A stretch of DNA of 44,910 bases from Paludibacteraceae bacterium (lineage in GTDB: Bacteria; Bacteroidota; Bacteroidia; Bacteroidales; Paludibacteraceae), in NCBI GenBank assembly GCA_017446455.1, contig JAFSQV010000068.1, positions 1 through 44,910 on the forward strand, in the 5' to 3' direction. The notes beneath the pieces were generated by a model, which did not search any database, had not been told where the DNA came from, and worked only from the letters and a program-made list of their open reading frames with translations. This document shows positions 2,233-39,744 of the stretch, in pieces (the stretch's first letter is position 1; the number at the start of each line of letters is the position of its first letter). The position numbers were made by a program, and so were the translations under genes.

Positions 2233-2275
2233 ATTATGATGCGTTTTAATTGTTTCTTATCAGGCATATACACAC

Positions 2276-2294
2276 GAAAAGCGTGCGCTTTCGT
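2276..2294. other. Small dyad in the leader of the GLUG gene
   Basis: CGAAAAGCG and CGCTTTCG face each other around TG, 44 to 62 bases upstream of the GLUG start codon. If transcribed it would form a stem in the 5' leader. No function can be assigned from sequence. Confidence 0.35.
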
Positions 2295-2304
2295 TCGCTT
2301 CAAT

Positions 2305-2444
2305 TTGACATTTTGAGGTCCTGAACTTACCTTTAACAACTCAAATCTATGCACGGAAAACTCACGCTGATACGTGAGCGTACATAAAAACCGCAACTTG
2401 AGTTGTTAATGACTTTTGAAGTTGTTCAGGTTTCAAAATGTCAA
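2305..2444. repeat. Nested 140 bp inverted repeat upstream of the GLUG gene
   Basis: Four pairs of arms are nested. TTGACATTTTGA (2305-2316) pairs with TCAAAATGTCAA (2433-2444); CCTGAAC (2320-2326) with GTTCAGG (2424-2430); TTAACAACTCAA (2333-2344) with TTGAGTTGTTAA (2398-2409); and CTCACG (2361-2366) with CGTGAG (2373-2378). The whole can fold into one long interrupted hairpin. It fills most of the 346 bp gap between the KilA-N gene and the GLUG gene, both on the minus strand. It could be a terminator-like structure, a small mobile-element remnant or an invertible segment; no recombinase is nearby in the window. The rest of the gap (2445-2578) is AT-rich with no convincing gene. Confidence 0.7.
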
Positions 2445-2489
2445 GCTTTTTCGGCTTATTACGCTTTATTTATGTATGTTGTTTGTCTG

Positions 2490-2510
2490 TTGTTTTATGC
2501 TATAGGCATA
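2490..2510. repeat. Copy 1 of a short direct repeat flanking the KilA-N gene
   Basis: TTGTTTTATGC followed by TATAGGCATA. A similar stretch occurs at 3438-3459 (TTGTTTTATGC, then CAGAGGCGGTA), on the other side of the KilA-N gene, and both continue into a similar T-rich tract. The inner TATGC/GCATA arms also make this copy a small hairpin. Confidence 0.4.
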
Positions 2511-2578
2511 TTTTGTTGCTATATTAGTTTTATTCTATTCTAAACGTATCGAATTGCACAGGATTAAAATAGATGGTA

Positions 2579-3403
2579 TTATCCTTTCAAAATGTGCTTG
2601 CTCTCCACATTCTCCAGTACAGTCATTTGCTGGATGGCTATCTGGTTGAGTTTCTGGAGACGCTCGCCCTGAGGCATACCTTCATGTATAAAGACGGCAT
2701 TCAGATTCTCCATATTACTCAAACAGATCAGTTGGTTAATCGTTGCGTAGTCGCGGATGTTGCCTTTGTCCTCAGGATGGGCATCGCGCCACTCTTTAGC
2801 GGTCATTCCAAACAACGCCACATTGAGTATATCGGCTTCGTTAGCATAAATCAGCGAACGATGGTATTGACTGATCTCTTCCGGCACAAGGTTTGCTTTG
2901 ATGGCGTCCGTGTGTATATGATAGTTGATCTTCGCCAACTCACGTTTTGCTGACCAACCAAGTGCCTTTTGTTCTTCCTCTTTAAGGCGCTGGAACTCCT
3001 TGACGACAAGCAAGTTAAACTCCGGTGATAGCCACATACCAAAATGGTATGCTATATCTTTGTGCGCGTATGTTCCTCCATAACGACCGGATTTAGCGAT
3101 AATACCGATAGCTCCTGTGCGTTCTATCCATTCTTTGGCAGTCAAGATAAAACGATTGGTACCTGAGGCATTTTTAATTGCATCGAATTCGATGCTTTTA
3201 AAATTAGGGTTGTGCAGATTCTCCCATACACCGAGATACGAAATGGTATCTTTGCGGCGCATCCAGTTCTGAATAACAATATTCGTTCTATCACTGTTGT
3301 CACCGGCCTTCACCATGTCCGTCAGGCAAATATAGTCCTCATCGTGCAAACCGAAGATAACCGATATTTCCGAGTCGTCAATATTGATTTTGCGTACTGC
3401 CAT
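2579..3403 (-). CDS. KilA-N domain protein (putative DNA-binding)
   Basis: A 274-residue protein. Residues 1-145 match the KilA-N type domain (YICLTDMVKAG, NWMRRKDTISYLGVWE, NPNFKSIEFDAI, KSGRYGGTYAHKDIAYHFGMW, LVVKEFQRLKEEE). The C-terminal half carries the region usually fused to it (HTDAIKANLVP, EADILNVALFGMTAKEWR, GNIRDYATINQLICLSNMEN). KilA-N is a DNA-binding fold common in phages, phage remnants and mobile islands; in Bacteroidetes such proteins occur as lone accessory genes. It lies 152 bp downstream of the DUF3791/DUF3990 cassette on the same strand, with a hairpin (3515-3538) and a 16-bp palindrome (3489-3504) between them, so it may have its own promoter although none is clear. Family assignment is firm; its target and role are unknown. 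Confidence 0.9.
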   Translation of the reverse strand: MAVRKINIDDSEISVIFGLHDEDYICLTDMVKAGDNSDRTNIVIQNWMRRKDTISYLGVWENLHNPNFKSIEFDAIKNASGTNRFILTAKEWIERTGAIGIIAKSGRYGGTYAHKDIAYHFGMWLSPEFNLLVVKEFQRLKEEEQKALGWSAKRELAKINYHIHTDAIKANLVPEEISQYHRSLIYANEADILNVALFGMTAKEWRDAHPEDKGNIRDYATINQLICLSNMENLNAVFIHEGMPQGERLQKLNQIAIQQMTVLENVESKHILKG

Positions 3404-3437
3404 TATTTTCTAATCATATACATTTTTTGCCTATTGG

Positions 3438-3459
3438 TTGTTTTATGCCAGAGGCGGTA
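3438..3459. repeat. Copy 2 of a short direct repeat flanking the KilA-N gene
   Basis: TTGTTTTATGC followed by CAGAGGCGGTA, partner of the copy at 2490-2510. It lies in the leader region of the KilA-N gene. Confidence 0.4.
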
Positions 3460-3488
3460 ATATTGTTTTTGTTTAGTTTTGTTTTAAT

Positions 3489-3504
3489 CGGTCATATATG
3501 GCCG
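3489..3504. promoter_or_regulatory. 16-bp near-perfect palindrome upstream of the KilA-N gene
   Basis: CGGTCATATATGGCCG is self-complementary except for one G-T pair. It sits 86 bp upstream of the KilA-N start, where an operator for this DNA-binding protein or another regulator could lie. Operator function is inference. Confidence 0.4.
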
Positions 3505-3514
3505 ATAGATTATT

Positions 3515-3538
3515 TCTCTGTGTTTAACGTCTCAGAGA
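3515..3538 (-). terminator. Hairpin after the DUF3791/DUF3990 cassette
   Basis: TCTCTG (3515-3520) pairs with CAGAGA (3533-3538) across a 12-base loop, 18 bp after the last cassette gene ends. There is no strong T-run on the minus strand, so it is at best a weak or factor-assisted terminator. Confidence 0.35.
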
Positions 3539-3555
3539 GGGGACGGTTATTTATT

Positions 3556-3768
3556 TTATTTCTTGTAGCCGAATTCAATCAATAGTTCGTCAGCGAGGTA
3601 TTCATCGCTGAAACAATGCATGTCGGCAACGCCGTTGCTGATGAGATCATACGTCGTGGAGTCGTAGAACTTGCCCAATGCCTCTTCGTACGAAAGTCCC
3701 GCTTGCTCTGCAAAGAGTTTCACAATGCGAGCGTACTTCATTTGTAATATGGTTGGATTAGCTTGCAT
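3556..3768 (-). CDS. Small DUF3791-like protein, third gene of the cassette
   Basis: A 70-residue protein with the pattern of the small DUF3791 proteins: an N-terminal helix with hydrophobic spacing (MKYARIVKLFAEQAGLSYEEALGKFYDS), then TTYDLISNGVADMHCFSDEYLADELLIEF. It is similar in layout to the other small protein of the cassette (4235-4450): both have a helix, a YD or YH...A motif, a short turn, and SDEYLADEL or SKEYIVDDL near the end. It starts 2 bp after the DUF3990 gene stops, so the two are probably cotranslated. DUF3791 genes are commonly next to DUF3990 genes, as I recall the families; an antitoxin or partner role is inferred from that context. Confidence 0.7.
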   Translation of the reverse strand: MQANPTILQMKYARIVKLFAEQAGLSYEEALGKFYDSTTYDLISNGVADMHCFSDEYLADELLIEFGYKK

Positions 3769-3770
3769 GG

Positions 3771-4238
3771 TTATAGTCTTTGGGATAATTTAAAATGAAG
3801 GAATTTATCCAATACAACTTGAGAGGTAATACATATCTGATGATTCGGTTTCTTCTCACGCAGTTCGCCCAAAGCCTGTTCACGTGTATAAATGCCTGAA
3901 AAATAGAGATCTATTGTGTCAAACACTTGATCGTCCGCTATGCCGCCTTCGATAATATCAAATTGTTCATGGGGCAATCCTTTGCGACAAGCAGTTATGA
4001 AATCCAACCACTCGCCATTATATGCAGAAAAGACTTTACGGGTACATCCCGGGCATTCCTCGAATTCATAGATATTCATAATAGCCTTCTGTCCGCGTCT
4101 GATAAAACGCTCGCCATAGCGCTCTGCCTGCGCACGCAAAGGAGTAAGGTAAAAGCCCACTCCGAAATCGAGGCGAGGACGAGAATGAAGCAAGTCTGGG
4201 TGAGGAATTTCCGTGTATGATGTATGATAAAGAATCAT
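3771..4238 (-). CDS. DUF3990-type ADP-ribosyltransferase-fold protein, putative toxin
   Basis: A 155-residue protein matching the DUF3990 pattern: ILYHTSYTEIPHPDLLHSRP, then LDFGVGFYLTPLRAQAERYGERF, and near the end KKPNHQICITSQ. This layout fits a compact ADP-ribosyltransferase fold: His5 in the first strand, Tyr30 in the GFY motif, and Gln134 where the third catalytic position is expected. The catalytic reading is inference; I see no classical E-x-E. Family members are usually genomic partners of small DUF3791 proteins. Here the start overlaps the upstream small gene by 4 bases (ATGA) and the stop lies 2 bases before the downstream one, giving a tightly coupled trio. A toxin acting on a cytoplasmic target, held in check by one or both small proteins, is the best guess; the target is unknown. 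Confidence 0.75.
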   Translation of the reverse strand: MILYHTSYTEIPHPDLLHSRPRLDFGVGFYLTPLRAQAERYGERFIRRGQKAIMNIYEFEECPGCTRKVFSAYNGEWLDFITACRKGLPHEQFDIIEGGIADDQVFDTIDLYFSGIYTREQALGELREKKPNHQICITSQVVLDKFLHFKLSQRL

Positions 4239-33200: not shown

Positions 33201-34051
33201 CACTCCTGCTTCGTATAGTGCATGCGGTTGACGTCATTCACGTAGTGGTTCGTGCTCAAGCATATCAATCGGTCGTGGGCTTCCGCATCTTCTTCGTTCA
33301 CAAAGTGCGAGTCATTGGTCGCAATGACCTTCACGCCGTACTTACGTGCCAGGTCGATGAGAATAGGGTTAACCTGTTTCTGACGCTCGTATACCTCTAC
33401 GTCCGCACCGGGTTTCTGGGTCTCATGGCGCTGGAGCTCGATATAATAGTCCTCGCCAAAGAGATTCTTGAACCATTGTACGGTCTCTTCCGCTTCGCTG
33501 AAATCCCCACCTTTGGCGATTCCATCGAGGATTTTCTGGGGTAACTCACCTCCGAGACAAGCGGAGGAGCAGATAATACCTTCGTGGTATTTCTCAAGTA
33601 ACTCGCGGTCGATACGCGGCGTGTAGTAATACGCATCGGACATGTAACCCTGCGAGACAATACGGCAGAGATTGTGGTAACCCACCATGTTCTTGGCCAG
33701 CAGAATGAGGTGCCAGCCGGAGCGGTCGATGAAGAACGAACGTCCCTCTCCATTTACCGCTTTATCGTCTTTCTTTGAAAGACGTCCGCGCCGCGCGCAA
33801 TACGCCTCCACACCTACGATAGGCTTGAAGGGCACGAATTCCTCGCCGGAAGCCGCACAGGCAGCCTTACGGTTCTTGTTGATCTTCTTGCAGTAATCCA
33901 AGAGCTCCTTGATGCCGTACATGTTGCCGTGGTCGGTTAAGGCCACAGCCGGCATACCTGTCTCCAGACATTTATCCACGATCTCTTCTACCTTCGACAA
34001 TCCGTCTAAGAGCGAGTAGTGGGAGTGCACATGTAAATGCGTAAAAGTCAT
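30218..34051 (-). CDS. dnaE: DNA polymerase III subunit alpha
   Basis: A 1277-residue replicative polymerase. I start at ATG 34051 (MTFTHLHVHSHYSLLDG); the longer in-frame start is TTG. The order is the PHP domain, polymerase core with SLPDIDTDFEDCGRG near residue 450, thumb and fingers (GMQKYLRELKPT, YRPGPMDYIPQF, YQEQVMLLSRLL, FNKSHAACYSWVAYQT), helix-hairpin-helix, and an OB-fold near the C-terminus (ACLLGGIITEAEQKISQKGNPYGRYTI). Length and motifs fit type 1 DnaE. It carries its own promoter, facing that of the EamA gene, and overlaps nadD by 4 bases. Confidence 0.97.
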   Translation of the reverse strand: MTFTHLHVHSHYSLLDGLSKVEEIVDKCLETGMPAVALTDHGNMYGIKELLDYCKKINKNRKAACAASGEEFVPFKPIVGVEAYCARRGRLSKKDDKAVNGEGRSFFIDRSGWHLILLAKNMVGYHNLCRIVSQGYMSDAYYYTPRIDRELLEKYHEGIICSSACLGGELPQKILDGIAKGGDFSEAEETVQWFKNLFGEDYYIELQRHETQKPGADVEVYERQKQVNPILIDLARKYGVKVIATNDSHFVNEEDAEAHDRLICLSTNHYVNDVNRMHYTKQEWLKTPEEMAQIFSDIPEALANTQEIVDKIELYDIDHGPIMPKFDIPASFGKEEDYPDRLAFESAYLRHLTMEGALERYGKERLENDEVLKERIEFELNTIISMGFPGYFLIVMDFIRAAREELDVSVGPGRGSAAGSVVAYCLKITDLDPLEYDLLFERFLNPDRISLPDIDTDFEDCGRGKVLDYVSRKYGETHVAHIVTYGKMATKSALADVGRVQQIPLSRVNELKGLIPDREFPGNIKDEKGKSPKVNLKNCYKYIDELKREYEQGDPNTRSMLEYAARLEGTIRQVGVHACGVIIGADDLTNFAPLSSVEDKNSKKRVLVTEYDGHVVESVGLIKMDFLGLITLTIIKECLRNIKKARGIDIDIDHIPIDDELTYKLFQEGRTVAVFQFESAGMQKYLRELKPTVIGDLIAMNALYRPGPMDYIPQFIKRKQGIEPVTYDIPVMEKYLKDTYGVTVYQEQVMLLSRLLANFTRGESDKLRKAMGKKQMDVLASLQDKFMEGGKANGHDVKILTKIWEDWKKFASYAFNKSHAACYSWVAYQTGYLKAHYPAEFMAANLTVHKDDIKEVTKLMDECNALKVSVLEPDVNESELSFTVNQKGDIRFGLGGIKGVGEGAAEAIISEREKHGKYKDIFDFLERVNLQSCNRKTIENLAQAGAFECFSDIYREQFFGTDENGNSGLDLLMNYGNKWQADKENNANSLFGDLDTAIEVKHPDLPQVPRWDTIERLNKEKDLIGIYLSAHPLDEYAFEVRELCNITANELTLFENWRKPEQRKDAEDLLRAAKAEQPEEAILLPSEFLAAHKNQACLLGGIITEAEQKISQKGNPYGRYTIADYSGTYQLVLFGNAYSQFAHLMLKDLYVLVTGVVQQKNAGQRWFKEAPDEEAEFEFVVQRVDMLNEVQNQRTEGLNIRLSLDTITPEIIDELVEQTTKNPGQVRLHVTVYNPMNRQHVVLTSRSQSIHVTPQFYHWLCEQRADGVLDFSVKTNE

Positions 34052-34068
34052 AATTGCCAAATTTGCCG

Positions 34069-34100
34069 CAAAATTACAAAATTATTTTGACATGTGCAAA
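34069..34100 (-). promoter_or_regulatory. Promoter of dnaE-nadD
   Basis: On the minus strand, TTTG (34097-34100), 20 bases, TAATTTTG (34069-34076). It overlaps the plus-strand promoter at 34086-34116. Confidence 0.72.
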
Positions 34101-34116
34101 TTTTTTTGTACCTTTG
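34086..34116 (+). promoter_or_regulatory. Promoter of the EamA transporter gene
   Basis: TTTG (34086-34089), 19 bases, TACCTTTG (34109-34116). The -33 boxes of this and the dnaE promoter are crossed, so only one polymerase could bind at a time. Confidence 0.7.
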
Positions 34117-34141
34117 TCCCCGATTTGTAATTTGGCAAAGA

Positions 34142-35077
34142 ATGGCAAAAAGAAATAGCGAAGAGTTTGTGGCCATCACGGCGCTCATCGTGTCGATGAT
34201 CATATGGTCGGTGAGCGGTATTGCGATCAAGCATGCCTTAGCCGTGTTACCGCCGTTTACGATGATCGTGCTGCGCTTTGTACCTTCGGTACTACTGATG
34301 CTCGTCATCGGTCTTATCTGCCGCAAGAGCAGCCTTTTTGCGTTGCAGAAGATTGACCGTCAAGACTGGCCGCTATTTTTAATAGCGGGTTTCTGCCAGC
34401 CTTTCCTCTATTACCTTTTGGAGACTTTTACATATGACGCGCTGCATAGCCCGACGATCGCGGAGACGCTGCTGTCTACGAGTCCGTTGTTGAGTCCGAT
34501 TTTTGCGGCCATTATTCTGCGCGAACGAGTGACGAAATACAATATTTTGGGTATCCTTGTTTCTACAGCCGGTGTGTTCGCGCTGTCGCTCATCGGAAGT
34601 AAGGACTATTCCATCGGAAATTACTGGGGCATCTTATTGGCATTTTTGGCCGTTTCTGCCGCTGTCATCGACTCAATCATGATGCGTAAGGTGCCCGCCA
34701 AATATACCTCGCTCACCTTTATTTTCTACGCGCAATGCGTGAGTCTGCTGTTCTTTATTCCTTTGTGGTTCTGGAAAGAAGGACCGGAGGCAATATACAA
34801 TTTACAATTTGCAAATGACAAATCGCAACTTTTTGTTGCGTTAGGTTGCGTGGCGTATCTGACGGTGTTTGCGAGCGTGATCGCCTTTATATTGTTCTGC
34901 GCAGCATTGCGTAAGGTAGGCGTGACGCAAGCGAATGCGTTTAACAATATCCGCCCGGCGTTTACGGCCCTTTGGATGTTCCTCTTTTTCGGCGAACATT
35001 TGCCTATCGGCAAGTGGATCGGCATGGCGCTGATCATTATCGGACTTTTCGTCTGTCAGAAAAAAGAAGCACAATAA
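34142..35077 (+). CDS. EamA/DMT-family membrane transporter
   Basis: A 311-residue membrane protein with about ten helices in two EamA repeats. ATG 34142 (MAKRNSEEFVAITALIVSMIIWSVSGIAIK) is chosen because the upstream extension crosses the promoter. Motifs: LPPFTMIVLRFVPSVLLML in the first repeat, YDALHSPTIAETLLSTSPLLSPIFAAIILRERVT, and ANAFNNIRPAFTALWMFLFFGEHLPIGKWIGMALIIIG in the second. The family exports metabolites; the substrate cannot be read from sequence. A seven-base repeat array (34791-34825) lies inside the gene and encodes part of a loop (AIYNLQFANDKSQ). It is transcribed on its own, ahead of the steroid-type operon. Confidence 0.88.
   Translation: MAKRNSEEFVAITALIVSMIIWSVSGIAIKHALAVLPPFTMIVLRFVPSVLLMLVIGLICRKSSLFALQKIDRQDWPLFLIAGFCQPFLYYLLETFTYDALHSPTIAETLLSTSPLLSPIFAAIILRERVTKYNILGILVSTAGVFALSLIGSKDYSIGNYWGILLAFLAVSAAVIDSIMMRKVPAKYTSLTFIFYAQCVSLLFFIPLWFWKEGPEAIYNLQFANDKSQLFVALGCVAYLTVFASVIAFILFCAALRKVGVTQANAFNNIRPAFTALWMFLFFGEHLPIGKWIGMALIIIGLFVCQKKEAQ
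34791..34825. repeat. Heptamer array inside the EamA gene
   Basis: Five units, CAATATA-CAATTTA-CAATTTG-CAAATGA-CAAATCG, head to tail and in an open frame. The total of 35 bases is not a multiple of three, so any insertion must have been accompanied by another length change. Confidence 0.75.
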
Positions 35078-35108
35078 TATAAGAAAAAATATACGATTAT
35101 TAAGATTT

Positions 35109-35140
35109 TTTGTTTATACGAAATGGATTTCGTAATTTTG
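35109..35140 (+). promoter_or_regulatory. Promoter of the steroid-type operon with an internal perfect dyad
   Basis: TTTG (35109-35112), 20 bases, TAATTTTG (35133-35140). Between the two boxes TACGAAAT-GG-ATTTCGTA (35117-35134) is a perfect 8+2+8 dyad touching the -7 box. A repressor bound there would block initiation directly; this is inference. Confidence 0.72.
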
Positions 35141-35165
35141 CAAGCTATTTATAACAAACAATATC

Positions 35166-35975
35166 ATGCCAATAGAAAACATTTACTCTATTGATTTCTT
35201 TTACGACTTGCTGTACATCATGTTTCTGGTAGGGCTGGTGGTATTTGTGTCGTTGTATTTTGTAGATGCCGGCTACGGAAAGATGCGCTCTGAGAAGTGG
35301 GGCCCGGCGATTAGTAACAAGGTAGGATGGCTGCTCATGGAGTGCCCGGTGTTCTTCGTGATGCTGTACTTGTATTTCAAGTCCTTCCCGCTCTACGGCG
35401 GTGTGACGAAGCAGGCGCCGTACTGGTTGTTCTTTCTGTTCTTTGAGTTCCATTATTTCCAGCGCTCATTCGTCTTCCCCTTCTTGCTGAAGGGAAAGAG
35501 TAAGATGCCGCTGATTATCATGTTGCTTTCCGTAGCATGGAACTTAATCAACGGGTATATCCAGGGTTTCTGGCTCTTCCATCTTGCGCCGCAGTACTAT
35601 CCGGAGTTGTATACCCCGACATGGGTGAGCACGCCGCAGTTCATCATTGGTACGGTCATCTTCTTCACGGGTTGGATCATCAACATGCATTCCGATCATG
35701 TGATTCGCCACTTGCGCAAACCGGGCGATACGAACCATTACCTGCCGAAGAAAGGTCTGTACAAGTATGTTACCAGCGCGAACTACTTGGGTGAGGTCAC
35801 CGAGTGGCTCGGATTTGCTATCCTGACGTGGTCGTTGGCGGGTCTGCTGTTCTTCTGGTTCAGCTGCTGCAACCTCGTGCCGCGCAGCAACGCGATCTAC
35901 AAGAAATACGAGGAAGAATTCCCCGATGAATTCGACCGAAAGAAGTTAAAACGTATTATTCCGTTCATTTATTAA
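35166..35975 (+). CDS. Steroid 5-alpha-reductase family membrane protein
   Basis: A 269-residue membrane protein with about six or seven helices, matching the SRD5A (3-oxo-5-alpha-steroid 4-dehydrogenase) family: WGPAISNKVGWLLMECPVFF near residues 45-65, FFEFHYFQRSFVFPFLL, FTGWIINMHSDHVIRHLR, and the NADPH-side signature HYLPKKGLYKYVTSANYLGE then VTEWLGF. The C-terminus NLVPRSNAIYKKYEEEFPD, then LKRIIPFIY, is also typical. The family reduces the delta-4 double bond of 3-keto steroids with NADPH. It opens a three-gene operon, 2 bp before the flavin oxidoreductase. Similar trios in gut Bacteroidales have been linked to isoallo bile acid formation, as I recall; the substrate here is not proved. 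Confidence 0.9.
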   Translation: MPIENIYSIDFFYDLLYIMFLVGLVVFVSLYFVDAGYGKMRSEKWGPAISNKVGWLLMECPVFFVMLYLYFKSFPLYGGVTKQAPYWLFFLFFEFHYFQRSFVFPFLLKGKSKMPLIIMLLSVAWNLINGYIQGFWLFHLAPQYYPELYTPTWVSTPQFIIGTVIFFTGWIINMHSDHVIRHLRKPGDTNHYLPKKGLYKYVTSANYLGEVTEWLGFAILTWSLAGLLFFWFSCCNLVPRSNAIYKKYEEEFPDEFDRKKLKRIIPFIY

Positions 35976-35977
35976 TA

Positions 35978-37285
35978 ATGGCAACAAAAAAGACTAAAGA
36001 GCCGGCTAATGAGTCGAAGCTCTTCACGCCCTTCCAATTAGGGCCTATTACGCTGCGGAACCGTATTATCCGCAGCGCTGCTTTTGAGAACATGGCGCGC
36101 GCCAATGCGCCTACGAAGGAGCTGCAGGACTACCACGTGAGTGTAGCGCGCGGCGGCGTAGGTATGACGACGGTAGCTTACTGCGCGGTAGACCAAACTG
36201 GTGTATCGTTCGACGGTCAGCTATACGTGCGCCCGGAGATTATCCCGGATATGAAGAAGATGACCGATGCGATTCATGCGGAGGGCGCCAAAGCCAGCAT
36301 CCAGTTGGGCCACTGCGGCAACATGACGCATATGAGCACCTGCCATTGTATTCCCGTCAGCGCCGATACATGGTTCAACCTCTATAGTCCGACGATTCAC
36401 CGCCGCCTGAAAGTAGTGGAGATCAAGACCATCGTCAAGCATTTCGGTGAGGCAGTGGATTTCGCCCGTGAGTGTGGCTTTGACTGCGTAGAGATCCATG
36501 CCGGTCACGCGTATCTGCTCTCGCAGTTCCTTGCGCGCCGCACGAACCACCGTCACGATGAATACGGCGGCTCTTTCGAGAACCGCGCCCGTTTCATGAA
36601 CGAGGTGTTGGATGAAGTGATGGCGCATGCCGGAAAGGATATCGCGGTGATCGTGAAGACCAACATGTGGGATGACTGCTGGCAAGGCGTAAGCCTCGAA
36701 GAGGGTATTCTGGTAGCGAAAGAGATCGCGAAACATAAGGTACACGGTATCGTGCTCTCCGGCGGAACGGTGAGTCGCTCGCCGATGACGATCCTTGGCG
36801 GCGCGATGCCTATAAAGACGCTGGCGCATTACATGTCGATGAAGGACCTGTGGTGGCTCAAGGCGGCGCTAAATATACCGTTTGTAGGTTCGATCATGAC
36901 GCCGACAGTGCCGTTCAAGGAGTTGTACTTCATGGATAAAGCGAAGATCTTCCAAGAGGCGCTCAAAGACACGAATATCCCGCTGATCTATGTCGGCGGT
37001 GTGCAGAGCGGTGATAACTGCCAGCAGATCATAGACGAAGGCTTTGAACTCTTCCAGATCGCACACGTGCTGATCAAAGATCCGGACTTCGTAAAGCATG
37101 TACAGGAGAATCCGCATTACCACGCGGGCTGTAAGCGCTCGAACTACTGCGTAGGACGTATGTATTCGAAGAACATGAAGTGCCATGAGTGCGTAGAGCG
37201 TGACGGCGAGCAGATCGCACCGCGTATTCAACGAGAAATAGCTAAACTGGAGAAAGATGCTGAGCTTAGTAACAGGGGCAAGTAG
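35978..37285 (+). CDS. Old-Yellow-Enzyme-family NADH:flavin oxidoreductase
   Basis: A 435-residue TIM-barrel flavoprotein: FTPFQLGPITLRNRIIRSAAFE, VGMTTVAYCAVD, ASIQLGHCGNM, VEIHAGHAYLLSQFLARRTNHRHDEYGGSFENRARF (FMN and substrate loop), and VGGVQSGDNC with a following phosphate-binding stretch. The C-terminal part has Cys residues spaced CKRSNYC and MKCHEC, which might hold an Fe-S cluster in related enzymes. It lacks the FAD/NAD domains of the longer BaiCD-type enzymes. In steroid clusters such proteins reduce the ring enone with the opposite (5-beta) outcome. It starts 2 bp after the 5-alpha-reductase gene and overlaps the SDR gene by 29 bases. Confidence 0.88.
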   Translation: MATKKTKEPANESKLFTPFQLGPITLRNRIIRSAAFENMARANAPTKELQDYHVSVARGGVGMTTVAYCAVDQTGVSFDGQLYVRPEIIPDMKKMTDAIHAEGAKASIQLGHCGNMTHMSTCHCIPVSADTWFNLYSPTIHRRLKVVEIKTIVKHFGEAVDFARECGFDCVEIHAGHAYLLSQFLARRTNHRHDEYGGSFENRARFMNEVLDEVMAHAGKDIAVIVKTNMWDDCWQGVSLEEGILVAKEIAKHKVHGIVLSGGTVSRSPMTILGGAMPIKTLAHYMSMKDLWWLKAALNIPFVGSIMTPTVPFKELYFMDKAKIFQEALKDTNIPLIYVGGVQSGDNCQQIIDEGFELFQIAHVLIKDPDFVKHVQENPHYHAGCKRSNYCVGRMYSKNMKCHECVERDGEQIAPRIQREIAKLEKDAELSNRGK

Positions 37286-38084
37286 TGGTATAGGCTTGCA
37301 GTACGCGACGCAGCTCGCGCGCGACTATCATAGCGACCTGTTGCTCGTCAGCAATCAGGAGAAAGAGTTAGAGCAAGTAGCGAAGGACCTCGCGGCGCAA
37401 TACGGCGTGAAGACGATCGCGCGCTTTGCGGATCTCAGTCTGCCCGATGCGGCCGAGACGCTGCATGACTGGTGCGTAGAGAACAAGTACGTGGTGGATG
37501 TGCTGGTGAATAACGCCGGTGTGTTCTTCTTTAACAAGTACTGCGAGACCTCGATGAAACGCATAGAGTTGATGCTGCAGCTGCACATGATCACGGTGGC
37601 CAAACTGACGCGTCTCTTTGCGGCGGACATGTGCCGGCGCGAATTGACGGAAGAAGAGGCCAAACAACGCATATGCGGGCACAAGCGCATGCGCGGGTAT
37701 ATATTAAATATGAGTTCGATGTCGGCATGGATGGCGATGCCGGGTATTCAAACCTATAACGCCACAAAGGCCTTCATCTATAACTTCTCGAAGTCTATCT
37801 GGTACGAACTCAAGCCGCAGAATGTCGGTATTACCGTCATGGCGCCGGGCGCAGTAGATACGGGTTTGTTCGGTCTCGCGCCGAATCTCCGTAAGTTAGC
37901 GGTAGCCTTAACGGTCTCGATTCCACCGGAGAAATTAGTGAAGCGCGCGTTACGGAAAATGTTCCGAAACAAGAAAGCCGACACCCCGGGAGTGATCAAC
38001 TGGCTCTGTACGCCGCTGCTGAAACACACACCGGACTGGATGCTTTTCTTGGCTCAGAAGAAACTGGCGCAGTTTATGCATTAA
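37257..38084 (+). CDS. Short-chain dehydrogenase/reductase, putative hydroxysteroid dehydrogenase
   Basis: A 275-residue SDR. The cofactor loop TGASSGIG is at residues 6-13; NNAGV, the catalytic Ser in ILNMSSMSAW and the Tyr/Lys pair in YNATKAF follow. A C-terminal extension (TPGVINWLCTPLLKHTPDWM) is close to that of 17-beta-HSD-12-like members. The start lies 29 bases inside the preceding gene, so it is translationally coupled. In this operon a 3- or 17-hydroxysteroid dehydrogenase role is likely; position specificity cannot be read from sequence. A strong terminator follows directly. Confidence 0.88.
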   Translation: MLSLVTGASSGIGLQYATQLARDYHSDLLLVSNQEKELEQVAKDLAAQYGVKTIARFADLSLPDAAETLHDWCVENKYVVDVLVNNAGVFFFNKYCETSMKRIELMLQLHMITVAKLTRLFAADMCRRELTEEEAKQRICGHKRMRGYILNMSSMSAWMAMPGIQTYNATKAFIYNFSKSIWYELKPQNVGITVMAPGAVDTGLFGLAPNLRKLAVALTVSIPPEKLVKRALRKMFRNKKADTPGVINWLCTPLLKHTPDWMLFLAQKKLAQFMH

Positions 38085-38111
38085 AAAAAGAGGCCCGCGC
38101 CTCTTTTTTTT
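38083..38111. terminator. Bidirectional terminator between the SDR gene and the S41 protease gene
   Basis: An A-run plus GAGGC (38083-38094), loop CCGC, then GCCTC plus a T-run (38099-38111). It works for both converging genes; the SDR stop ends at 38084 and the protease stop begins at 38110. Confidence 0.92.
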
Positions 38112-39744
38112 ATTTCAGCTCGCTTAACGCGCGCTTGAGCTCGTCGTCGAAGCGCAGGTTATATGCGGCTTGGCCTTTTTCGTAATAATAGCGCAATACG
38201 ATCTCGGAACCCAGCATCTCTTTCACTTCGTCCTTATTGCGCTCGATAGCTTCGCGGAAATCCGGCGTGAGCATCGGTTCGAGCGCTTCTAACTGCGCGA
38301 GCGTCGTGGAGTCGATGTCTTCGTGCTTCGCCATCTTGATCATGTCCGCGAAGAACTTACCGGTCTCCGTCTCGTATTTGAATTTCCGCTCATCGAGGAA
38401 GCGGCAGAAGTCTTCGATATCGGCGTCTGTGACCGTATATTCCTGCGGCGCGGCAATGCTGTCGTGCAGCTGGTGGTAGCGCGTCGCGTAGTCAAAGAAA
38501 TAATGATTGAGGTATAACGTATAGCATATATCCACCTTCGCGCTGTCGTTCAGCACGATATCCGGCAGGATACCGCCCGCCGTGTCGCGCTTGAGTTCAT
38601 GTCCTTTCTGCCGCTCGCTGTAGTCAATCGCTTGGATGCAACGCCCGGAGGGTAGGTAGTACTTGCTGGTCGTTACCTTGATATGTCCGCCGTAGATGAT
38701 AGGACGTACGTTCTGCACAAGGCCTTTACCGAAGGTGCGTTGACCGATGAGTGTCGCGCGATGCAGGTCTTGCAGCGCACCAGAGACGATCTCGCTCGCC
38801 GATGCAGAGTTCTTATCTACTAAAATAACCAGCGGCAGGTCTTTGTAGCGCGGTTTATTACGCGTCTGATAGACATAATTGCTGCGCGATGTCTTTCCCT
38901 TCGTCTCTACCACTTTCTGGCCTTCATCGACAAAGAGATTAACGATCTGCAGCGCCTCATCGACGATACCTCCGCCGTTCCCGCGCAGGTCGATGATCAG
39001 TTTGCGCGCGCCTTTGGTATAATAGAGTTCGTCCAAGGCATTCGAGAACGCCTGTGCGGAGCCTTCCGTAAACTCCCGGAACGCGATATAACCTACTGGT
39101 GTAGATAGGCTATCTGCCTCTATGCTGGTATAATAACTGACGGCGTCTAGGTGAATGTCCTCGCGAACGATCTCTAACTTCATAGGTTTGGCAACTCCTT
39201 CGCGCTCGATCTCTACCACGACCGTCGTACCCGGCACACCGCGAAGGTTGTTACTTACTTCACTTACGGTCAGTCCCTTGGTGGTCTTGCCGTCGATGGA
39301 GAGAATACGGTCGCCGGCCTGCATACCTGCCCTTTGTGCTGGTTTGCCCTCGTAGGGGTTCACAGCATAGGTCCAAAGACTGTCTTTGGGTTGCTTCTTT
39401 CCCGCTCTGTCGGGACGAGGACGCTGCTGAATAATACTACCGATACCGCCGTACTTGCCGGTGGTCATCATGCGCAACTCGCGGTCGTTCTTCTTGGGAT
39501 AATAGACAGTGTAGGGGTCTATCTTATGGAGCATGGCGTTGATGGCCGTCTCCGTCAGATCCTCGTAGTTAAGGGTGTCCACGTAGTTAACGTCCACCTG
39601 ACGCAGCACGTCATTGAAGATGCTGATGCATTCCTCCGCCCGCGCCGTCTCTTGCCGCTCTTGAGCTACTACTGCCAAAGGCAGTAAGCACAGAAGGAGA
39701 TTAACGCAGATGATTCGGGACAAATTCACTAACATCTTTTCCAT
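38110..39744 (-). CDS. S41-family (CtpA-like) carboxy-terminal processing protease
   Basis: About 544 residues with a signal peptide (LSRIICVNLLLCLLPLAVVAQ). ATG 39744, 39750 and 39735 are all possible starts; 39744 is chosen for the signal shape. A helical N-terminus is followed by a PDZ domain (YAVNPYEGKPAQRAGMQAGDRILSIDGKTTKGL), then the S41 core: LIIDLRGNGGG, the nucleophile Ser in DKNSASASEIVSGAL and the Lys in FGKGLVQ. These proteases trim periplasmic proteins after their C-termini. Its 5' end overlaps the coaD 3' end by about 44 bases on the same strand. Confidence 0.92.
   Translation of the reverse strand: MEKMLVNLSRIICVNLLLCLLPLAVVAQERQETARAEECISIFNDVLRQVDVNYVDTLNYEDLTETAINAMLHKIDPYTVYYPKKNDRELRMMTTGKYGGIGSIIQQRPRPDRAGKKQPKDSLWTYAVNPYEGKPAQRAGMQAGDRILSIDGKTTKGLTVSEVSNNLRGVPGTTVVVEIEREGVAKPMKLEIVREDIHLDAVSYYTSIEADSLSTPVGYIAFREFTEGSAQAFSNALDELYYTKGARKLIIDLRGNGGGIVDEALQIVNLFVDEGQKVVETKGKTSRSNYVYQTRNKPRYKDLPLVILVDKNSASASEIVSGALQDLHRATLIGQRTFGKGLVQNVRPIIYGGHIKVTTSKYYLPSGRCIQAIDYSERQKGHELKRDTAGGILPDIVLNDSAKVDICYTLYLNHYFFDYATRYHQLHDSIAAPQEYTVTDADIEDFCRFLDERKFKYETETGKFFADMIKMAKHEDIDSTTLAQLEALEPMLTPDFREAIERNKDEVKEMLGSEIVLRYYYEKGQAAYNLRFDDELKRALSELK

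Follow-up and report, generated by a model that had tools for sequence, protein, structure and literature searches.

Three adjacent genes in the genome of a rumen-type Paludibacteraceae bacterium probably encode an enzyme set for the reduction and epimerization of the steroid A-ring: an SRD5A-like membrane reductase (5AR), a flavoenzyme of the OYE family (OYE), and a short-chain dehydrogenase (SDR). They are located in the window, i.e., the whole 44,910-nt stretch of DNA that was analyzed, as summarized in Table 1. This explanation is based on the protein families, the conserved catalytic residues, the conserved gene neighborhood, and the purifying selection described below; the reactions and their direction are taken from the literature on Bacteroidota clusters of the same composition, and by analogy the enzymes would act in the same way here. 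Judging from the sequences, steroid activity of the trio is likely, and a bile-acid role in the organism carrying the window is doubtful.

Table 1. Features of the 5AR-OYE-SDR locus, in positions of the window.
Feature	Position	Strand	Description
EamA/DMT-family transporter gene, upstream of 5AR	34094..35077	+	PF00892, E 4.2e-40
Bacteroides-type promoter-like site, 5' of the 5AR gene	35109..35140	+	pattern TTTG-N20-TAnnTTTG
5AR gene	35166..35975	+	269 aa ORF; SRD5A-like 3-oxo-5alpha-steroid 4-dehydrogenase, integral membrane (hydrophobic segments)
OYE gene	35978..37285	+	435 aa ORF; FMN ene-reductase domain and C-terminal Fe-S-type segment; candidate 3-oxo-5beta-steroid 4-dehydrogenase/reductase (5BR)
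SDR gene	37257..38084	+	275 aa ORF; classical short-chain dehydrogenase, candidate 3-hydroxysteroid dehydrogenase
Hairpin between the convergent SDR and S41 peptidase genes	about 38083..38110	.	probable two-way terminator, from fold energy

An earlier reading of this DNA (the sequence-only reading) had described a tight three-gene unit on the + strand, and the ORF coordinates confirmed this: 5AR and OYE are 2 bases apart, and OYE and SDR overlap by 29 bases. It had also placed a single promoter in front of the unit and a strong terminator behind it. A match to the TTTG / TAnnTTTG consensus, which we take to be that of Bacteroides-type promoters, does precede 5AR, but a pattern match alone is no proof of function, and a loose form of the pattern (spacer 17–23) occurs eight times across the whole window on both strands. 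The hairpin behind the trio folds at −14.2 kcal/mol (z = −4.4, with 0 of 200 shuffles equally good), and because its stem extends into A and T tracts, it looks common to SDR and the convergent S41 peptidase gene. It was absent from the list of a simple terminator scan, in which five terminator-like sites were found in 34000–38500 against 4.8 expected, i.e., there was no excess. The genes of the trio are all under strong purifying selection, with dN/dS values of 0.02–0.12 against eight relatives (dS > 1 in many pairs).

The assignments to the SRD5A-like, OYE, and SDR families were borne out by the Pfam cut-offs and by structure and profile matches. The 5AR matched Steroid_dh (PF02544) with E = 2.9e-40 and 138 bits against a curated cut-off of 22.6, and the OYE and SDR were above the curated cut-offs of Oxidored_FMN (PF00724, E = 2.6e-56) and adh_short (PF00106, E = 6.4e-32), respectively. 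The best solved-structure matches of the 5AR were PbSRD5A (7c83, E = 7.8e-54) and human SRD5A2 (7bw1, E = 1.7e-38), far ahead of very-long-chain enoyl-CoA reductase in the PDB (E = 4e-10). A best match of the membrane protein to a non-steroid family, which the sequence-only reading had raised as an objection to itself, is thus ruled out.

The SRD5A2 positions were mapped onto the 5AR through its alignment to the solved SRD5A structures. E59 and Y97 of the 5AR, which correspond to the catalytic E57 and Y91 of SRD5A2, are invariant in the window and in 134 of 134 Bacteroidota loci. The equivalents of Glu57, Tyr91, Arg94, Asp164, Arg171, Glu197, Arg227, and Tyr235 are invariant across the same 134 loci examined, Arg94 being a residue that we assume to have a role in SRD5A2. 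The roles of the other residues are those given in the portions of PMC7815742 available to us. Seven of the eight NADPH residues (N160, D164, R171, N193, E197, R227, H231, and Y235) are kept in the 5AR of the window. The likeness to PbSRD5A and human SRD5A2 covers the Steroid_dh domain, the Glu57 and Tyr91 equivalents, and these seven residues. The 5AR differs from both at two positions. H231 is replaced by Ile, and the same portions of PMC7815742 exempt the H231A variant of SRD5A2 from a significant drop. Gln56 of the QEY motif, present in PbSRD5A, is replaced by Met58 in the window and in all 134 Bacteroidota loci. Human SRD5A2 loses its activity when Gln56 is changed to Leu or Ala (PMC7815742, in part). 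We counted both replacements against the steroid explanation, and since Met is found lineage-wide, we placed the 5AR in the SRD5A-like superfamily without calling it a proven steroid 5alpha-reductase. The substrate motif is therefore conserved in part, at Glu57 and Tyr91 but not at Gln56. The loss of Gln56 and the weak relationship to the enoyl-CoA reductase would also suit an endogenous lipid role, in which the trio would belong to core lipid metabolism, with an isoprenoid or fatty enoyl compound as the substrate of the membrane reductase; the much better matches to the SRD5A structures speak against it, and we consider it very unlikely.

The catalytic residues H174, H177, and Y179 of the OYE are present in 104 of 105 relatives, with a gap in the other. 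A first model of this protein, for which 12 similar sequences were used, had a poor pLDDT of 58.8 and was discarded; the model used was built from 45 sequences (pLDDT 88.7). It matches 2-naphthoyl-CoA reductase through residue 431 and trimethylamine dehydrogenase through residue 429 (targets of 660–729 aa), i.e., it has an FMN barrel followed by the fold of the Fe-S segment, as in these FMN + 4Fe-4S enzymes. The protein stops at residue 435, and the C-terminal FAD/NAD(P)H- or ADP-binding domains are absent from it. On this model, the OYE resembles an Fe-S OYE cut off before the last domain. Of four candidate ligands of a 4Fe-4S cluster, C385, C391, and C402 occur in 45 of 45 sequences and C405 in 26 in the 45-sequence set, and in the 105-row set the respective counts are 104, 104, 104, and 84. 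The spacing of the three invariant cysteines and the partly conserved fourth is presumably unlike that in 2-naphthoyl-CoA reductase and trimethylamine dehydrogenase. The OYE shares its FMN domain and the catalytic His, His, and Tyr with the Fe-S flavoenzymes BaiCD and ci2350 (a steroid 5beta-reductase), but it is shorter, without their FAD/NAD(P)H domain, and differs from them at two reported specificity positions in the substrate site. These are Ala178 and Gln183 here, whereas N and S are reported for the steroid-hormone type of 5beta-reductase, and Y/S and E for the bile-acid type. Identity with BaiCD was rejected: NCBIfam NF041087 gave 180 bits against a cut-off of 825 and covered residues 14–266 only, whereas full-length BaiCD has about 640 aa. 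The distance from BaiCD and the fit to neither specificity type were counted against the steroid explanation.

The SDR keeps TGASSGIG, NNAG, S154, Y167, and K171, which are the classical SDR motifs (TGxxxGxG, NNAG, and Ser-Tyr-xxx-Lys), and the PDB matches listed for it were a wide variety of SDRs, the best with E = 5.8e-17. The combination of 5AR, OYE, and SDR is itself already known, and Sato et al. in 2021 reportedly described the Bacteroidota 5AR-5BR-3beta-HSDH cluster. According to the parts of three papers available to us, Bacteroidota clusters of 5AR, an NADH:flavin oxidoreductase (5BR), and 3beta-HSDH make isoallo bile acids (PMC10382948, PMC12697870, PMC9645264; the source is ref. 107 of the first and ref. 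51 of the second), which supports the link to such Bacteroidales trios drawn in the sequence-only reading. The same three gene types are side by side here; the likeness is one of gene composition, and the trio differs in belonging to a mainly stomach-dwelling lineage and to a genome without a bile salt hydrolase match. In the published model, as given in the available part of PMC9645264, 5BR runs backwards to the 3-oxo-delta4 intermediate, which 5AR then reduces, so that the 5alpha and 5beta enzymes previously described as opposing present no paradox. The disruption of 5AR in P. merdae prevented the formation of alloLCA derivatives (PMC10382948, in part), and this knockout of the same gene type was counted for the steroid explanation and against the lipid role. 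A literature search with subscription journals outside its scope gave no paper title on the trio in rumen Paludibacteraceae, from which we claim no absence from print.

We analyzed the gene order in the best 80 of 236 5AR matches, a set that favors close relatives. In all 80 loci, OYE is located within about 0.5 kb downstream of 5AR, and SDR follows OYE in 79, the miss (L039) running off its contig; the exact gap and overlap vary among relatives. EamA is syntenic in the genus (matched upstream in 77 of these 80 loci), and none was found upstream in the more distant Bacteroidales loci L147–L172. Within the genus, 160 of 178 genomes carry 5AR and 161 carry OYE, a few as fragments (66 of 68 high-quality genomes in each case). 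Some genus members deviate from this order: L197 and L199 lack an SDR match, SDR is 3–4 kb away in L196 and L198, and OYE and 5AR are on separate contigs in G752 and G756. Clear 5AR relatives were present in 31 of 247 sampled Bacteroidales genomes; those of other genera are roughly 50–60% identical, most with an OYE. Of 32 close Bacteroidales loci, 25 have OYE downstream of 5AR, versus 0 of 22 distant ones, and 17 of the 32 have SDR beside the other two genes. The linkage in the close loci and the near-universal OYE in high-quality genomes were counted for the steroid explanation, and the occasional separation of SDR against it. That separation, and the great breadth of the SDR and OYE families, would be in line with a common transcript as the sole tie between genes that are otherwise unrelated; given the order kept in 79 of the 80 loci and the 5AR-OYE linkage in the wider order, we find this barely credible. 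The core-like spread and the housekeeping gene surroundings are in line with the endogenous lipid role, whereas the restriction of clear 5AR relatives within Bacteroidales is not.

The steroid explanation leaves a choice of substrate, on which the bile salt hydrolase family (PF02275) bears. A profile search found no PF02275 match in the genome of the window. Among the best 80 of 236 relatives, 9 had a match, 5 of them full-length; by the site in the title, full-length matches occurred in 0 of 16 stomach-site and 4 of 6 intestinal relatives, with no gut site in the title for the other 58, and one stomach-site relative (L018) had a partial match above the family cut-off. In the genus, 45 of 178 genomes had any match above the cut-off, of which 18 were full-length; the other 27 were weak or partial and were left out of the bile salt hydrolase count. 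Genus members with the hydrolase mostly carry a diverged OYE. Full-length PF02275 was found in 14 of 19 genomes with an OYE in the E-value band 1e-173 to 1e-181 (64–67% identical where listed) versus 3 of 142 other OYE carriers (Fisher). G614 and G761, with OYEs 65 and 67% identical, have stronger E values and no full-length PF02275, which makes the count 14 of 21 by identity. The association is confounded by ancestry because 14 of the 18 full-length carriers, namely those marked as carriers in the trees, fall into a single clade. In trees of a subset of loci, not the whole genus, with midpoint rooting, these 14 adjoin a large group of other genus loci for OYE (support 0.99), lie beside L196–L199 for 5AR (support 0.52; 0.59 for the 14 together), and do not stay together for SDR. 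On these trees, we do not claim a horizontal swap of OYE inside the genus. The hydrolase gene is about 3.6 kb from 5AR in G659 and about 6.9 kb in G616; in G659, a gene on the opposite strand, mutY-like by eye only, is located between it and the trio.

These results bear on two alternatives. The trio might be a plain isoallo-bile-acid cluster whose substrates are bile acids encountered by these bacteria through reflux, in hindgut relatives, or in passage, as its composition, the tracking of one OYE subtype by PF02275, and a rumen experiment would suggest: in the available part of PMC11193847, bile acids added to rumen fluid yielded alloCA, which the authors ascribe to “5alpha-epimerization,” and that part names no 5alpha-reductase gene. 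We counted this result for the steroid explanation in general. The same part states that bile acids are not normally present in the rumen, which makes a bile-acid role here doubtful, and with no PF02275 match in the genome, the contrast between stomach and intestinal relatives, and an association confounded by ancestry, we consider this alternative rather unlikely. Alternatively, in the forestomach the trio may reduce the 3-oxo-delta4 forms of plant sterols (or of steroid hormones) to 5alpha/5beta stanones and stanols, a tentative possibility. 5AR is near-universal in the genus, yet the stomach-site members tested have no full-length PF02275; in the accessible part of PMC6366745, sitosterol and its 5alpha/5beta stanols dominate herbivore feces and stanones are intermediates, although 5alpha-stanols also arise from plants and soil.

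The steroid A-ring explanation would work as follows. The membrane 5AR, with NADPH, would convert a delta4-3-oxo steroid to a flat 5alpha product, the 5BR-type OYE would interconvert 5beta-3-oxo and delta4-3-oxo steroids, and the SDR would oxidize or reduce the C-3 oxygen and could finish the 5alpha product as a 3-hydroxy compound. The OYE may exchange electrons not through an NAD(P)H-FAD domain but through a metal or Fe-S site in its C-terminal segment. Because the closest relatives are mostly from stomach compartments normally without bile, the real substrate may be another steroid, and in this lineage it would more often be a plant sterol ketone or a steroid hormone than a bile acid. A wider, more speculative reading, which we think unlikely as a whole, is that a mainly stomach-dwelling genus keeps a near-core sterol A-ring set for such compounds where bile is normally absent, that the bile-acid version of colonic Bacteroidales is another use of the same machinery, and that the OYE is a truncated Fe-S flavoenzyme trading electrons with a carrier protein, not NAD(P)H. 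If true, this exchange would let the OYE run as a dehydrogenase.

The Met in place of Gln56 offers a clean way to gauge the reach of the human SRD5A2 mechanism into gut bacteria. These observations also call for caution in annotation: a Bacteroidales 5AR-OYE-SDR trio should not be assigned to bile acid metabolism in every case. Should the enzymes prove active on steroids in the forestomach, their genes would be candidates for the 5alpha-epimerization of added bile acids in rumen fluid, and perhaps also for the reduction of sterols in herbivores.

The contig encodes a compact plus-strand unit of three genes: an SRD5A-like 5α-reductase (5AR), a flavin ene-reductase (OYE; candidate 5β-reductase, 5BR) and a short-chain dehydrogenase (SDR). 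This layout, proposed in the sequence-only reading, was confirmed by the ORF coordinates, the gap of 2 bases between 5AR and OYE, and the overlap of 29 bases between OYE and SDR. With dN/dS values of 0.02–0.12 against eight relatives (dS was saturated in many pairs), each member of the trio appears to be functional. The Pfam matches bore out the family assignments. The hairpin behind SDR, which was absent from the list of a simple terminator scan, is probably common to the trio and a convergent S41 peptidase gene. On sequence grounds, the trio is a real, conserved steroid-type reductase operon.

Features of the reductase operon and its upstream flank
Feature	Position	Strand	Length	Evidence
EamA-family transporter, upstream of 5AR	34094-35077			family match
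Promoter-like pattern, Bacteroides-type	35109-35140			pattern match
5AR	35166-35975	+	269 aa	Pfam Steroid_dh
OYE	35978-37285	+	435 aa	Pfam Oxidored_FMN
SDR	37257-38084	+	275 aa	Pfam adh_short
Hairpin, strong	about 38083-38110			z -4.4

In the genus set, 5AR was carried by 160 of 178 genomes (66 of the 68 of high quality), and OYE matches, a few of them weak or fragments, occurred in 161 (again 66 of 68). Among the best 80 of 236 5AR matches (loci L002–L081), OYE followed 5AR within about 0.5 kb in all 80, and SDR was next in order in 79. Among 20 further loci, SDR lay 3–4 kb away in L196 and L198 and was not found in L197 and L199; in genomes G752 and G756, 5AR and OYE sat on separate contigs. 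Stop codons were present within the stretch matching OYE in G628, G605, G730, G735, G717 and G684, and within that matching 5AR in G671; local decay, alignment beyond the gene end or assembly error could each account for these interruptions in an otherwise near-core set. An EamA match stood upstream of 5AR in 77 of the same best 80 loci (more than 1 kb away in L069), and none was seen beside 5AR in other Bacteroidales loci (L147–L172); the transporter may move a substrate or reflect plain synteny.

Some 5AR match was present in 61 of 247 sampled Bacteroidales genomes, and a strong one (about 249 bits or more; row count) in 31. OYE was downstream in 25 of the 32 close fetched loci (5AR at least 47% identical; about 2 kb away in L163) and in 0 of 22 distant ones, with a window-type SDR in 17 of 32 and, weakly, 1 of 22. 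Two Bacteroidales genomes had two 5AR copies each (G120: L125, L169; G001: L126, L171), and OYE adjoined none of these four fetched copies. Of 345 genomes in the phylum sample, 13 matched 5AR, most weakly and including the window's own; the four fetched loci (L174–L177) had no OYE.

The composition of the trio is already known, since it matches published Bacteroidota clusters. Passages of these reports describe a Parabacteroides merdae 5AR clustering with a predicted 3β-HSDH and an NADH:flavin oxidoreductase (PMC10382948; compared by description), an indirect pathway in which 3α-HSDH and 5BR yield 3-oxo-Δ4-DCA and 5AR and 3β-HSDH yield iso-allo-DCA (PMC9645264), Bacteroidetes clusters of 5β-reductase, 5α-reductase and 3β-HSDH (PMC12697870), and a 5AR annotation in nearly all chicken-caecum Bacteroidetes isolates studied (PMC6069880). 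The suggested link to Bacteroidales isoallo-bile-acid clusters thus holds, as far as these passages go (PMC10382948; PMC9645264; PMC12697870).

The best solved relatives of 5AR were PbSRD5A (7c83, E = 7.8e-54) and SRD5A2 (7bw1, E = 1.7e-38), with enoyl-CoA reductase far behind (E = 4e-10). Of the SRD5A substrate motif Q56, E57 and Y91, as described in part of PMC7815742, the Glu and Tyr were retained in every one of the 134 Bacteroidota loci, all of which carried Met at the Gln56 position. This is a real departure, because Q56A and Q56L are described as abolishing human SRD5A2 activity (PMC7815742). The Met is presumably tolerated in this Bacteroidota lineage, since disruption of the P. merdae 5AR reportedly stops allo-bile-acid formation (review, PMC10382948). 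In the window 5AR, seven of eight NADPH residues were retained; His231 was replaced by Ile, and H231A is mentioned as the variant exempted from a significant drop (PMC7815742). A second, more distant tier of Bacteroidota 5ARs (L127–L143, L173–L177; 29–40% identical, without OYE) had the Met in common but retained His, or had Asn, where His231 aligns; it is a different 5AR-like group.

The SDR had the classical motifs and is a candidate 3-HSDH; 3β specificity is not readable from its sequence, as the solved structures that it matches are only distantly related (best E = 5.8e-17). A tandem pair of SDR genes followed OYE in L144 (at 2235-3858, counted from the start of 5AR; 77–81% identical to the window SDR) and in L181 (51%); the members of a pair possibly differ in 3-HSDH specificity.

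The window's genome comprises 1.84 Mb in 100 contigs and is 80% complete. The trio is surrounded by housekeeping genes (coaD, der-like, mnmE, lptD, a release factor and, as judged by eye, a DNA polymerase III alpha-like gene) together with a PorV gene of type IX secretion; no mobile-element families were found among the proteins scanned. The closest titled relative was Bacteroidales MAG RUG372 (5AR 99.6% identical), RUG denoting rumen uncultured genomes; many further close relatives bear the title Paludibacteraceae. Titles of the best 80 loci named the rumen, reticulum, omasum or abomasum in 16 cases, intestinal sites in 6 and no site in 58.

Full-length matches to the bile salt hydrolase family, PF02275 (model positions 1 to about 305), occurred in 18 of 178 genus genomes (row count; any match, 45). 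Most of these carriers have a diverged OYE: within the OYE E-value band 1e-173 to 1e-181, 14 of 19 genomes were carriers vs. 3 of 142 others, or 14 of 21 when the set was defined by identity, which added two genomes. These 14 carriers form one clade (support 0.59 in the 5AR tree, 0.99 in the OYE tree), so they are not independent events and p-values overstate the case. By title, full-length PF02275 was present in 0 of 16 stomach loci vs. 4 of 6 intestinal ones (cecum, colon, cecum, rectum; Fisher p = 0.002, overstated as noted) and in 1 of 58 without a site (L040); the stomach locus L018 had a partial match, and a colon (L009) and a duodenum record (L038) had no full-length match. On the simplest reading, the trio in stomach members does not depend on bile. 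Of the earlier proposal that this organism converts a steroid or bile acid, the steroid-type reductase families stand, but a bile-acid role is doubtful given the stomach relatives and the window's genome, which at 80% completeness had no full-length PF02275. Herbivore feces are described, in part of one report, as dominated by sitosterol and its 5α and 5β stanol products (PMC6366745), so plant sterol ketones are a plausible candidate substrate for the trio.
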